This document shows positions 19,142 through 22,738 of a DNA stretch of 41,992 bases, one piece after another. The position numbers and the translations under genes are program-made. The notes below the pieces were generated by a model. The model was not told where the DNA came from. It did no database searches and was given only the letters and a program-made list of their open reading frames with translations. The stretch is taken from IMG/VR virus record IMGVR_UViG_3300029892_000008, positions 1 to 41,992 of that record; one strand, 5' to 3'. Each line of letters opens with the position of its first letter. Within the stretch, counting starts at the first letter, position 1. The DNA comes from a virus.

Positions 19142-20431
19142 TTATTTGTTGCCACCAATCGTGGCTTCGATCACTTCAATTTTCCTGGCCAACGCCCGGC
19201 CTATTTCAGCATCCACACCCGGCGTGACCAGATACTGAACCAGCACGTTATTCTTCTGGCCAATTCTGTGGCACCGGTCTTCTGCCTGCCTCATATTCCC
19301 CGGCACCCAATCCAACTCTGCGAACACTACTATATCAGACGCGGTGAGAGTTAAACCAACACCAGCCGCCTGAATGTTGCCAACGAACAGCTTCACTCTC
19401 GGGTCCGTCTGGAAGGCGTTCACGTATCCCTGCCGCTTATCAGACGGCGTAGAGCCTGTGATACAAACAGCTTCGCCCGAGAACGCCGCGGCGATAGAAT
19501 TCACCACGTCCTGATGGTACGCGAACACCACCACTTTGTCTTTCTCTTCCAACAGCATCTTTATGTGCTGAACCACTTTGGAGATTTTCGCCATGCCGCA
19601 AGCCTTTCGGGCTTGAGCTGTGGCCGACACTGGCACATGCTCCAGATCGTTCCACCACGCACCCTTCAACGGGACGCCAGCAAACATATCGTCTCCATCT
19701 AATTCAATAATCTGATGCTGCTTCTCTGGCAGCTCAGACAAAACCTCACTCTTCAGGCGCCGGAGCATCACGGGCGCCAGCTTCTCTTTGAGTTCTTCAA
19801 TATTTGTGGCGCCAAGATTGTTCCACCTTCGGACAATTTTCTTGCCGAACTGCAACCGCTCCATGTGACCACCACAATACCGGGCTTCGAAATGCTGCTT
19901 GCTCTTGGTGATCTCTGGGTTAATCGCATGAAGCATAACGAACAAATCAGCAGGGCGATTAACCAATGGTGTGCCAGTGAGGAAAACCAATCTCGGGGTT
20001 CTGGGCGCGAAGCATCTGGCTGCAGCCGTTCTATCGGCTGTGGGGTTTTTCAGGTAGTGCGCCTCGTCGAACACCACCAGATCATAAATGTGACCTTTGC
20101 TGTCACATGGTTTACCGTGAACCAGAGCATCGCCATGAGCGGAAAGAATATCATAGTTTATAATGGTGATGTTGCTATGGCGCACGGTGTCCTTCTTCCC
20201 GGAGACAATCTGTATGGAGAGGGGACGGGTAAGCCATGTTGTGAGTTCGTTATACCAATTCTGCTTCAAGGATGCCGAGCAAACTATCAAAATTCTGATA
20301 ACACCAGGGCAGGCGTTTATTAACCCAGCAACCTGGACTGTCTTCCCCAAACCCATCTCATCTGCCAGAATGGCCCGGAAATTTTCCTTGAGCCAATCCA
20401 CGCCTTGTTTCTGAAAGCTCTTGAGGTTCAT
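19142..20431 (-). CDS. SNF2/SMARCAL1-like DNA helicase or translocase
   Basis: The 429-residue protein has all main superfamily 2 motifs: Walker A DEMGLGKT (K30), DEAH at 122-125, LTGTP, and motif VI QAEDRCHRIGQ. It is close to the short SNF2 type found in phage replication cassettes, which anneals or remodels forks. I chose ATG 20431 because it overlaps the previous TGA in ATGA; an in-frame ATG at 20446 would overlap by 19 bases. It lies between the repeat protein and the DUF2800 nuclease. Confidence 0.88.
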   Translation of the reverse strand: MNLKSFQKQGVDWLKENFRAILADEMGLGKTVQVAGLINACPGVIRILIVCSASLKQNWYNELTTWLTRPLSIQIVSGKKDTVRHSNITIINYDILSAHGDALVHGKPCDSKGHIYDLVVFDEAHYLKNPTADRTAAARCFAPRTPRLVFLTGTPLVNRPADLFVMLHAINPEITKSKQHFEARYCGGHMERLQFGKKIVRRWNNLGATNIEELKEKLAPVMLRRLKSEVLSELPEKQHQIIELDGDDMFAGVPLKGAWWNDLEHVPVSATAQARKACGMAKISKVVQHIKMLLEEKDKVVVFAYHQDVVNSIAAAFSGEAVCITGSTPSDKRQGYVNAFQTDPRVKLFVGNIQAAGVGLTLTASDIVVFAELDWVPGNMRQAEDRCHRIGQKNNVLVQYLVTPGVDAEIGRALARKIEVIEATIGGNK

Positions 20432-21201
20432 TTCAGATGCCCCCATCCTGTGGCTTTTCGAACCATGTCTGTCAACATCGCATTGGCTGCGCTCCTGGCT
20501 GCACTCCAGGCTGCGCTCTGGGCTGCACTCCAGGTTGCGATCCAGGTTGCGATCCAGGCTGCTCTCTCGGCTGCGCTCTCGGCTGCGCTCCGGGCTGCGC
20601 TCTCGGCTGCGCTCCGGGCTGCGCTCCGGGCTGCGCTCTCGGCTGCACTCCAGGTTGCACTCCAGGCTGCGCTCCGGGCTGCGCTCTCGGCTGCACTCCA
20701 GGCTGCGCTCTCGGCTGCGCTCTCGGCTGCACTCCAGGCTGCGCTCCGGGCTGCGCTCTCGGCTGCACCCCAGGCTGCGCTCCGGGCTGCGCTCCGGGCT
20801 GCACTCCAGGCTGCGCTCCGCAGAGACTCTTTTCCGGTTTCTAAATACTCGACAATCAAATCGTATTCGTCTGTGTAAGGCCGGATTTTTTCAATGTGTA
20901 TAAGCGCTTGTTTTCGGGCGAATTCGCGCAGTAATTTTTCGGCATCGAAACGTGCGAGATATTTACGTTTCGTGCCCGCAATTATGTCTTTTCCCGCCAC
21001 GATCATGCCAGATATATCGACTAAATAGAGAGTTGAACCGGGCGCGTACCGTAAGGCATCTATCAGTCGTTCCGAAGCATGTAGACCGAACTCGCACAGA
21101 ACAGGTTTACCTTCTACCGTGTGCGTGGTCCCAACCCGGACCTTCCTGCCGTCGCCATAAGCAAGTTTTTTGTCGTCGGGGCTAAACCAAAATGCTAACA
21201 T
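20428..21201 (-). CDS. DUF7666-like protein with 28 SAAX repeats
   Basis: First gene of the minus-strand operon, 257 residues. The N-terminal 125 residues (YGDGRKVRVGTTHTVEGK, LCEFGLHASERLIDALRYAP, REFARKQALIHIEKI) match a phage family I associate with DUF7666. Residues about 130-240 are 28 copies of a four-residue unit, mostly S-A-A-X with X being W, R, E or Q. A four-residue period on a helix gives a slowly twisting stripe of W, R and E. A short end (MLTDMVRKATGWGHLK) follows. GGAGG lies 8 bases before ATG 21201. The role is unknown. The repeat-tail length may vary between relatives through slippage. Confidence 0.65.
   Translation of the reverse strand: MLAFWFSPDDKKLAYGDGRKVRVGTTHTVEGKPVLCEFGLHASERLIDALRYAPGSTLYLVDISGMIVAGKDIIAGTKRKYLARFDAEKLLREFARKQALIHIEKIRPYTDEYDLIVEYLETGKESLRSAAWSAARSAARSAAWGAAESAARSAAWSAAESAAESAAWSAAESAARSAAWSATWSAAESAARSAARSAAESAARSAAESAAERAAWIATWIATWSAAQSAAWSAARSAANAMLTDMVRKATGWGHLK
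20482..20817. repeat. 28 tandem 12-bp units coding for SAAX
   Basis: The array is 336 bp of degenerate 12-bp units, such as CTCCAGGCTGCG and CTCTCGGCTGCG on the plus strand. Every unit keeps the GGCTGC core and varies at the codon for the fourth residue. Because the period is a multiple of three and stop codons are absent, several frames are open across it on both strands; only the minus-strand frame has a gene context. Confidence 0.95.
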
Positions 21202-21327: not shown

Positions 21328-21367
21328 TAGATGTGGTCTTGAAAATTATTATGGGGAGGTAGAATAA

Positions 21368-22738
21368 GTGCCGGCATACTACAATGAGTTCGACCCTGCC
21401 GCAGCTGCGTGGTTGCGGGAACTCATCAAACAGGGACTGATTGCACCAGGAATCGTAGACGACAGATCAATAACGGAGGTAGACCCGAATGAACTTAAAG
21501 AATTCACTCAGTGCCATTTCTTCGCTGGAATCGGGGGCTGGAGCTATGCCCTCAGACTCGCAGGCTGGCCAGACGATAAACCAGTCTGGACTGGCAGTTG
21601 CCCGTGTCAGTCATTCAGCACAGCAGGAAAGCAAGCAGGAGTTAACGACCCCAGACACCTCTGGCCCGTGTGGTTCAAGCTCATTGCAGCCTGCAAACCT
21701 GAATTTATCTTTGGGGAACAGGTTGCAGCAGCGATTAGCCACGGTTGGCTCGATGATTTACAAGATGACCTGGAAGCTCAAAACTACGCCACGGGGAAGA
21801 TCGTATTACCAGCTTGTGGCGTCGGCGGCTACCACATCAGGCAAAGAATCTGGTTTGTTGCTGAACGGTTGGAACACGCCGAATTGCAATGTGAACGATC
21901 AGCCAGACGACAGCCGCAGGGGATTGGGCACGCCCTTGGGACAAGCGAAATTAGCGGGCTGGCCGACACCGACAGCGCAAGACGGGAGCCGGGGCAACGG
22001 CACAATCAGGCCACAAGACACGGGGATACCATTGCCGCAGAGGGCTGCGATGATCGAGCAGATCGAGCCGAAGCGCCTGAAACCTTCTGGTCAAATCCTG
22101 ACTGGCTCTTCTGCCGAGATGGAAAGTGGAGGCCAGTGCCAGCTGAATGTAAATTTCTCTTGCTGGCTGATGGGTTTTGGTATAGAATGGACGATGTGTT
22201 ATCAGAACTCATTGCGAAAGCCATTCAAGGAGTAGAAGACTATGCCGCGATTACCGGAACCAGACCCGAAGAAGTATTGCGAAACCTGTGGGAAGCCAAT
22301 GGAAAGGAAACGATTCAACGGGAGATTGCAAGACCGTGGAGCGTTTTTAAGGATGAAGTTCTGTGGACTATCTTGCGCGGTAAAGGCTCAGTGGGAGAAA
22401 AATCCGAACCCAAGCATACCGGCCAGCAGAAAAAGATCACGGAAGCAGATAGAAGGATGTTGCGAGATTTGCAAAGCCAAATCGAATCTGAGCATCCATC
22501 ACTGCGATGGAAACCCGCAGAACAACGACAGCAAGAACCTGCAAACCTTGTGTCTGAGCTGTCACAGTTTTTGGCACAGTGTGAACAGGCGCATGGGGAA
22601 TACAGTGCCCGGAAGAATGAAGGTGGTTTTCCACTCGCAGGAAAATGTGTAGGCAGAGTGGGATTACTGCGGGGTTATGGCAATGCAATCGTGCCGCAAG
22701 TCGCGGCGGAAATAATCAGAGCGACATGGGTAGATTAA
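21368..22738 (+). CDS. C5-cytosine DNA methyltransferase (Dcm-like)
   Basis: GTG 21368 follows GGGGAGGT by 8 bases. The 456-residue protein has motif I FAGIGGWSYALRLAG (51-66), the catalytic motif IV GSCPCQSFSTAGKQ with C80, GEQV with E117 in place of the usual ENV, motif VIII HIRQRIWFVAE and a C-terminal RGYGNAIVPQVAAEII (IX/X). Between RDGKWRP and the C-terminal motif there is an unusually long stretch of about 170 residues, where a second gene is encoded in the +1 frame. It should methylate cytosine in phage DNA, probably to evade restriction. Two nested frames run inside it (21,489 and 22,242). Confidence 0.88.
   Translation: MPAYYNEFDPAAAAWLRELIKQGLIAPGIVDDRSITEVDPNELKEFTQCHFFAGIGGWSYALRLAGWPDDKPVWTGSCPCQSFSTAGKQAGVNDPRHLWPVWFKLIAACKPEFIFGEQVAAAISHGWLDDLQDDLEAQNYATGKIVLPACGVGGYHIRQRIWFVAERLEHAELQCERSARRQPQGIGHALGTSEISGLADTDSARREPGQRHNQATRHGDTIAAEGCDDRADRAEAPETFWSNPDWLFCRDGKWRPVPAECKFLLLADGFWYRMDDVLSELIAKAIQGVEDYAAITGTRPEEVLRNLWEANGKETIQREIARPWSVFKDEVLWTILRGKGSVGEKSEPKHTGQQKKITEADRRMLRDLQSQIESEHPSLRWKPAEQRQQEPANLVSELSQFLAQCEQAHGEYSARKNEGGFPLAGKCVGRVGLLRGYGNAIVPQVAAEIIRATWVD
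21489..22235 (+). CDS. 248-residue ORF nested in the +1 frame of the methyltransferase
   Basis: ATG 21489 has its own ACGGAGGT site 9 bases upstream. The protein is not random shadow sequence: it is S/T/P/G rich and includes MTWKLKTTPRGRSYYQLVAS, LLLNGWNTPNCNVND, GWPTPTAQDGSRG and NVNFSCWLMGFGIEWTM. From memory, the pattern of TWK..TP.GR, WPTPTA.DG and LNP..WLMGFP..W recurs in proteins annotated at phage cytosine methyltransferase loci in the alternative frame. Its TAG lies directly after the AAGGAG of the nested HNH gene, so the two form a mini-operon in one frame. Function unknown. Confidence 0.55.
   Translation: MNLKNSLSAISSLESGAGAMPSDSQAGQTINQSGLAVARVSHSAQQESKQELTTPDTSGPCGSSSLQPANLNLSLGNRLQQRLATVGSMIYKMTWKLKTTPRGRSYYQLVASAATTSGKESGLLLNGWNTPNCNVNDQPDDSRRGLGTPLGQAKLAGWPTPTAQDGSRGNGTIRPQDTGIPLPQRAAMIEQIEPKRLKPSGQILTGSSAEMESGGQCQLNVNFSCWLMGFGIEWTMCYQNSLRKPFKE
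22242..22652 (+). CDS. HNH endonuclease nested in the +1 frame of the methyltransferase
   Basis: ATG 22242 follows AAGGAG by 9 bases. The 136-residue protein has an N-terminal zinc finger (YCETCGKPMERKRF, then MKFCGLSCAVKAQW) and a C-terminal HNH core: CCEICKAK, SIHHCDGNPQNNDSKNL, LCLSCHSFWH. This is a well-known phage HNH type. It lies wholly inside the methyltransferase gene, ending 86 bases before the methyltransferase stop and just ahead of the codons for its motif IX/X. It could be a homing endonuclease that entered the gene without closing the host frame. Confidence 0.85.
   Translation: MPRLPEPDPKKYCETCGKPMERKRFNGRLQDRGAFLRMKFCGLSCAVKAQWEKNPNPSIPASRKRSRKQIEGCCEICKAKSNLSIHHCDGNPQNNDSKNLQTLCLSCHSFWHSVNRRMGNTVPGRMKVVFHSQENV

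Follow-up and report, generated by a model that had tools for sequence, protein, structure and literature searches.

A probable two-subunit C5-DNA-methyltransferase encoded in overlapping reading frames of phages and invaded by a putative HNH homing-type gene

Organization of the locus

The window (the whole stretch of DNA analysed here) comprises the 41,992 bases of a virus record in IMG/VR; the DNA polymerase, exonuclease, helicase and portal-like genes found nearby in it assign it to a tailed phage. The locus under study combines a gene for a C5-cytosine methyltransferase (alpha), a second gene that begins inside it in the +1 frame (beta) and an HNH gene following beta in that same frame. 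Its features, with their basis in brackets, are:

21355–21360, + strand: Shine-Dalgarno site of alpha, GGAGGT (sequence)
21368–22738, + strand: alpha, putative large subunit of a C5-cytosine methyltransferase, 456 aa, GTG start (Pfam and PHROG matches)
21475–21480, + strand: Shine-Dalgarno site of beta, GGAGGT, within alpha (sequence)
21489–22235, + strand: beta, 248 aa, ATG start, "Mte8-like", +1 frame of alpha, with WPTPTA and motif-IX-like blocks (phrog_1008, phage relatives, purifying selection)
21602–21610, + strand: alpha motif IV, Pro-Cys-Gln with the C80 nucleophile (sequence and alignment)
22164–22190, + strand: motif-IX-like block of beta, WLMGFGIEW (near-invariant W-LM-G-x-P-xx-W in alignments)
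22191–22652, + strand: inserted cassette, approximate extent (motif IX–X spacing of 491 nt versus the usual 20 nt, i.e. 471 nt or 157 codons inserted)
22227–22232, + strand: Shine-Dalgarno site of the HNH gene, AAGGAG, coinciding with the final two codons of beta and adjoining the beta stop TAG (sequence)
22242–22652, + strand: predicted HNH endonuclease, 136 aa, ATG start, +1 frame of alpha (the frame of beta), 6 nt after the beta stop (phrog_1271, E 1e-13)
22653–22715, + strand: decayed +1-frame remnant of the former beta end, AEWDYCGVMAMQSCRKSRRK followed by a stop, 3' of the HNH stop (sequence; compare the WDDCAVMAMPSSRK ends of uninterrupted beta)
22670–22699, + strand: alpha motif X, RGYGNAIVPQ (alignment)

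Alpha matches Pfam PF00145 (E 2.1e-14) and phrog_363 (E 6.5e-76), and its AlphaFold model finds M.HaeIII and M.HhaI as the best structural matches (E about 4e-8). The catalytic part of the model is good; the part overlapped by the WPTPTA region of beta is disordered, and the first part of the bridge, over which alpha reads through the HNH insert without a stop, is helical. Beta was matched by phrog_1008 (E 7e-27) and also by phrog_31772, with no match in Pfam or NCBIfam and none, by sequence, among solved structures; its single-chain model is poor (pLDDT 57) and lends no fold support to a subunit role. In the collected loci Shine-Dalgarno sites of at least 5 nt precede 39% of the beta starts and 44% of the HNH starts, as compared with about 5% in a control frame. 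Elsewhere in the window (20431–21201, − strand) a 257-aa protein contains an alanine-rich repeat generated by about 28 copies of a 12-base unit, and matches PHROGs of unknown function.

Dual coding of alpha and beta

The overlap was assessed by permuting synonymous codons in such a way that one protein, its codon use and its composition are kept, and counting the stops that appear in the other frame. In the window, where the dual-coded length is about 1.16 kb, 9.0 stops would be expected in the alpha frame given beta, 3.9 in the beta frame given alpha and 6.2 in the alpha frame across the HNH domain, and none is seen in any of the three, while the third frame has the expected number. The same holds for 189 distinct alpha/beta overlaps (median length 282 codons), neither frame of which contains a stop against expectations of 7.6 (alpha frame given the beta protein) and 3.1 (beta frame given alpha), with 13.0 stops in the third frame versus 12.7 expected. 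Selection was estimated by a simplified OLGenie-style count of isolated single differences between independent pairs of relatives. Over 60 such pairs the ratios, which are uncorrected for multiple hits and are to be read mainly by their contrast with the control, were 0.12 [0.10–0.13] for alpha (dNN/dSN) and 0.15 [0.13–0.19] for beta (dNN/dNS), as against 1.26 [0.65–3.06] for the +1 frame of the alpha stretch upstream of beta, the value expected of a non-coding frame.

The absence of stops together with purifying selection in both frames establishes alpha and beta as real genes, and we regard their dual coding as certain. Long chance open reading frames are frequent in GC-rich genes, and a second frame kept open merely by base composition or codon usage would be the trivial explanation; its probability is negligible, since a permutation that preserves composition still predicts 3–9 stops, the third frame carries its expected share of them and both frames are under selection. 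We thus consider a chance opening refuted.

Occurrence of beta in other phages

A translated search detected beta in 228 phage records, all at less than 60% identity and most of them under an annotated methyltransferase. At the loci fetched both frames are open over approximately 230–390 codons (short or degenerate copies excepted) and the third frame is not. A scan of viral contigs with the single 248-aa beta protein returned no match, the relatives being too divergent, and they were recovered by an alignment-based scan. Among the alpha loci collected from viral contigs, beta occupies the +1 frame in 179 of 184; those of the five exceptions that could be placed are canonical unsplit enzymes carrying only the HNH gene. 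Three loci (L011, L111 and L211) that could be taken for natural alpha-beta fusions were left out, as their pieces are joined by frameshifts or indels that sequencing error or decay explains.

These results bear out the observations, and part of the interpretation, of the earlier note on this DNA, which had placed the three open reading frames and the Shine-Dalgarno sites of beta and HNH where we find them, had pointed to the retention of the C80 region (PCQ in our reading) and RGYGNAIVPQ in alpha and to about 1.15 kb of dual coding, and had suggested that the 248-residue product recurs in the alternative frame of other phage methyltransferases. Homologues do exist and both frames are strongly constrained, the opposite of the outcome that the note had named as refuting. 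Its description of an old, unnamed gene is correct as to age but not as to the name: both frames are annotated in K1 phages, as "C-specific methylase" and "Mte8-like protein", and the PHROG families of alpha (363) and of beta (1008 and 31772) are all named "DNA methyltransferase", with their two-frame relation unstated. No paper on the phage alpha/beta overlap was found in the literature covered, which was incomplete.

At loci L017 and L018 the variable region is of a second type, shorter both in alpha and in beta, and the LMGxPxEW block is kept; this suggests a joint exchange of recognition modules across the two frames.

Beta as a putative motif IX subunit

Pfam and alignments place motifs I–VIII and X in alpha, and the alpha profile matches canonical enzymes over motifs I–VIII only. 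No motif IX block was found in the alpha alignments, at the position where canonical enzymes show RLTPxExxRLQGFPD. Beta, on the other hand, ends in a near-invariant W-L/M-MG-x-P-xx-W block, whose start precedes alpha motif X by exactly 20 nt in 107 of the 115 uninterrupted loci; motif IX would thus still lie just before motif X on the DNA, but in the other frame. In L234, L242, L255 and others the same +1 open reading frame runs from the beta block into motif X (GNGQVP).

These features make it likely that beta is the motif IX subunit of a C5-methyltransferase split in the manner of M.EcoHK31I. The alternative, in which alpha alone is a complete enzyme and beta a separate accessory protein (a modulator, anti-restriction or specificity factor) overlapping it by chance, appears unlikely, albeit not without arguments of its own: an hhalign comparison paired the beta block with RLQGFPD of canonical motif IX at a probability of 1.4% over 9 columns, which is not significant, beta has no Pfam or NCBIfam family, and a C-terminal block of alpha (CRDGKWRPVEP-FPLAxG-RVGRLRGYGNAI) could replace motif IX. 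A chance companion of a complete enzyme would, however, hardly account for the strict co-occurrence of the two genes, with canonical enzymes as the placeable exceptions, for the lack of a motif IX block in alpha, for the fixed 20-nt offset between the blocks or for a subfamily in which motifs IX and X both belong to the beta open reading frame, and it has to be weighed against the published precedent of M.EcoHK31I (as outlined in PMC3404938). The earlier note allowed that the overlapping product may modulate or assist the methyltransferase. This wording now seems too weak: a W-L/M-MG-x-P-xx-W block located where alpha has no motif IX, and a related subfamily in which the +1 frame reaches motif X, make beta more likely an essential half of the enzyme than a modulator or assistant.

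The small polypeptide of M.EcoHK31I, like that of M.EaeI, is translated from another reading frame within the gene of the large one. Compared by description, the phage locus resembles both in having motifs I–VIII and X and none of IX in alpha, and a second frame inside the large gene; for M.EcoHK31I, the passage of PMC3404938 citing Lee, Kam and Shaw 1995 assigns motifs I–VIII and X to the large subunit and only motif IX to the smaller polypeptide. The differences are that M.EcoHK31I and M.EaeI are bacterial restriction-modification systems whereas here a large phage family, represented in hundreds of contigs, is involved, that the phage beta also overlaps the catalytic motifs and that the HNH cassette of the window adds a third gene. 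Among plasmids, a search for this split enzyme as part of a restriction-modification system yielded mostly entries described as "DNA cytosine methyltransferase" or uncharacterised, none of which could be identified as EcoHK31I. The genes of another divided enzyme, M.AquI, are not known to be nested over most of their length. Its smaller polypeptide, by the account in PMC3404938, carries motifs IX–X, which is the arrangement seen in the L234/L242 subfamily, where these motifs are in the second polypeptide.

The nested HNH gene

Relatives of the HNH protein were gathered by protein pattern regardless of their context; an alignment of 16 sequences gave no usable pattern and was divided in two. 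As the sample was seeded with nested members, the following statement is about this family rather than about HNH genes in general: 110 of 113 distinct HNH domains lie wholly within an open host frame, relative to which the HNH is read in +1, compared with 1.4 expected by permutation. The three non-nested copies, which fall in different parts of the HNH tree, show 8, 5 and 7 stops in that frame versus 6.8, 5.8 and 8.0 expected; the host frame is therefore kept open only when the HNH is nested. Free-standing HNH genes were seen directly 3' of methyltransferase genes at 2497–2860 of L319 (Spirosoma lacussanchae) and at 2452–2965 of L235; their other frames contain an ordinary number of stops.

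All hosts that could be matched by Pfam or by profile are C5-methyltransferases, canonical or split. Nine hosts gave no methyltransferase match, and the five of them that were inspected (L226, L231, L234, L242 and L255) turned out to be frames adjoining a methyltransferase, three with a beta match. The split is different in these five loci: alpha stops after motif VIII, the +1 open reading frame takes up the motif IX block and, beyond a bridge, motif X, and the HNH lies +1 relative to this open reading frame, so that all three forward frames are used in turn.

Over 31 pairs the selection ratio was 0.08 for the HNH frame (strong selection) and 0.59 [0.40–0.93] for the host frame (weak selection), implying that the bridge mainly needs to stay open. 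At 46 loci the HNH open reading frame opens directly after the beta stop, its start codon touching that stop in 27, and the Shine-Dalgarno site is often located in the last beta codons, which suggests that the HNH is translationally coupled to beta termination.

Insertion and mobility of the cassette

Instead of the 20 nt typical of empty loci, motifs IX and X are 443–491 nt apart in 33 occupied ones, and the inserted length (423–471 nt) is a multiple of three in all 33. Comparison of occupied with empty split alleles (L196 with that of Pseudomonas phage Haboob, L016; L198 with L096; L258 with L075) gave insertions of 471, 471 and 468 nt, respectively, flanked by an imperfect 46–48 nt repeat of the motif IX segment; for five occupied/empty pairs the insertions range over 462–471 nt and the repeats over 44–61 nt. 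Of the two copies of the motif IX segment, the upstream one retains the beta frame; in the downstream one, the +1 frame still encodes the motif IX block at only 1 of 33 loci. The duplication thus appears to let the upstream copy serve beta and the downstream copy serve alpha. The flanking repeat of the window itself is weak (34 nt), and such fading indicates an old insertion, one that may have become fixed instead of remaining active.

The presence of the cassette is patchy. The nearest relative is empty for 25 of 49 occupied alpha genes, one such pair being 98% identical. Among unsplit hosts, the enzymes of Staphylococcus phage CUB-EPI_14 and of IME-SA4 are similar except for 175 extra codons in that of CUB-EPI_14, located between the variable region and motif IX. 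Two Klebsiella viruses have other alterations at the cassette site of alpha: a 13-residue insertion, RVEPGVARVASSN, in phage RCIP0114 (L020, 1844–3034), possibly the scar of a lost insertion, and a short extra segment, possibly a remnant, in virus KpV2811 (L021, 1938–3299), where the beta frame is stop-free into the downstream endonuclease VII gene.

Judging from these sequence comparisons, the HNH is likely a splice-free homing-type insertion. The earlier note listed it together with beta in the second frame, but it does not belong to that ancient overlap: it behaves as a mobile insertion, leaves the frame of its host open and occurs in unsplit methyltransferases too. Nearly all members of the sampled family are tied to C5-methyltransferase genes, which is unusually strict for a homing gene and would fit a compact restriction-modification unit pairing the methyltransferase with the HNH as its restricting or nicking enzyme. 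We consider such a partnership quite improbable in view of the patchy presence between close relatives, of the duplicated segment left by the insertion with its empty-site counterpart, and of the occurrence of related HNHs in split and unsplit methyltransferases of different families, i.e. not matched to one enzyme. Removal of the insert by RNA or protein splicing, with the open frame being incidental, is less probable still: introns and inteins typically occupy conserved motifs and are patchily distributed, but Rfam intron families gave no match in the window region or in six relatives, the searches against protein families listed no intein, and a stop-free host frame at 110 of 113 loci would be needless for an RNA intron. 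The Rfam result and the open-frame statistics led us to reject the intron reading.

The closest published counterpart of the splice-free insertion is the ShiLan domain, an out-of-frame HNH with zinc fingers hidden in a stop-free in-frame insertion of a mycobacteriophage methylase (Arsenault, Gosselin and Gogarten 2025, PMC11855218). It involves no intron or intein, its distribution is patchy, the start of the insert resembles the sequence after the insertion site, and the HNH is read in the third frame from a GTG start with no ribosome site (PMC11855218). Our family has in common with it the stop-free in-frame insertion into a methylase with an out-of-frame HNH (110 of 113, and a multiple of three in 33 of 33), as well as an insert start resembling the post-site sequence (the 44–61 nt imperfect repeat of the relatives, weak in the window). 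It differs in that the HNH of the window is in the +1 frame with an ATG start, a Shine-Dalgarno site and coupling to beta, that the host already uses two frames and that the family includes over 100 diverse loci. Among mycobacteriophages only weak matches, to the HNH core, were found.

With somewhat less confidence than in the insertion as such, we favour a more general interpretation, namely an HNH family in which dual coding is obligate and constitutes a splice-free form of homing. Its members would be stop-free in the host frame for read-through and would target the motif IX codons of ordinary and two-frame C5-methyltransferases alike; in two-frame hosts they would bring a replacement end for the second protein, the duplication separating both genes with one copy per frame.

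Proposed mechanism

Overall, it is probable that the locus encodes a two-subunit C5-DNA-methyltransferase in two overlapping frames that has been invaded by an HNH homing-type gene. Alpha would supply the catalytic domain with motifs I–VIII and X. Beta, starting within alpha from its own Shine-Dalgarno site, would supply the missing motif IX and probably part of the target recognition, and the two would associate as in M.EcoHK31I. The HNH cassette would have entered at the motif IX codons, in frame and stop-free, and alpha would read it as a 157-codon bridge with which, we infer, the enzyme stays active. By carrying its own copy of the beta end the cassette would allow beta to terminate with motif IX as before, and the HNH would be translated by coupling to this termination. 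The HNH presumably cleaves empty alleles in their motif IX region and is then copied into them during repair. Of these elements, the dual coding, the selection on both frames, the nested position, the in-frame insertion with its duplication and the patchy distribution were demonstrated computationally, and the subunit function, cutting and homing are putative.

Significance

Hidden out-of-frame HNHs in phage methylases are already on record (ShiLan, PMC11855218), and the family described here is a large new variant, which extends these elements to more than 100 loci, backed by statistics, by free-standing copies as natural controls and by empty alleles. It provides a deep and well-controlled example from bacterial viruses, of a kind that is rare among tests of dual coding. 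It also ties scattered annotation (Mte8-like, PHROG 1008) to the proposal that the C5-methyltransferases of many phages are heterodimers, with a second subunit that the other frame conceals and annotation often misses; if this is true, enzymes expressed from the large open reading frame alone may look dead. Finally, it suggests that splicing is not required for a mobile gene to enter a working one, the host enzyme reading straight through the nuclease gene, and thereby offers a testable route by which a homing gene may persist in a coding gene.
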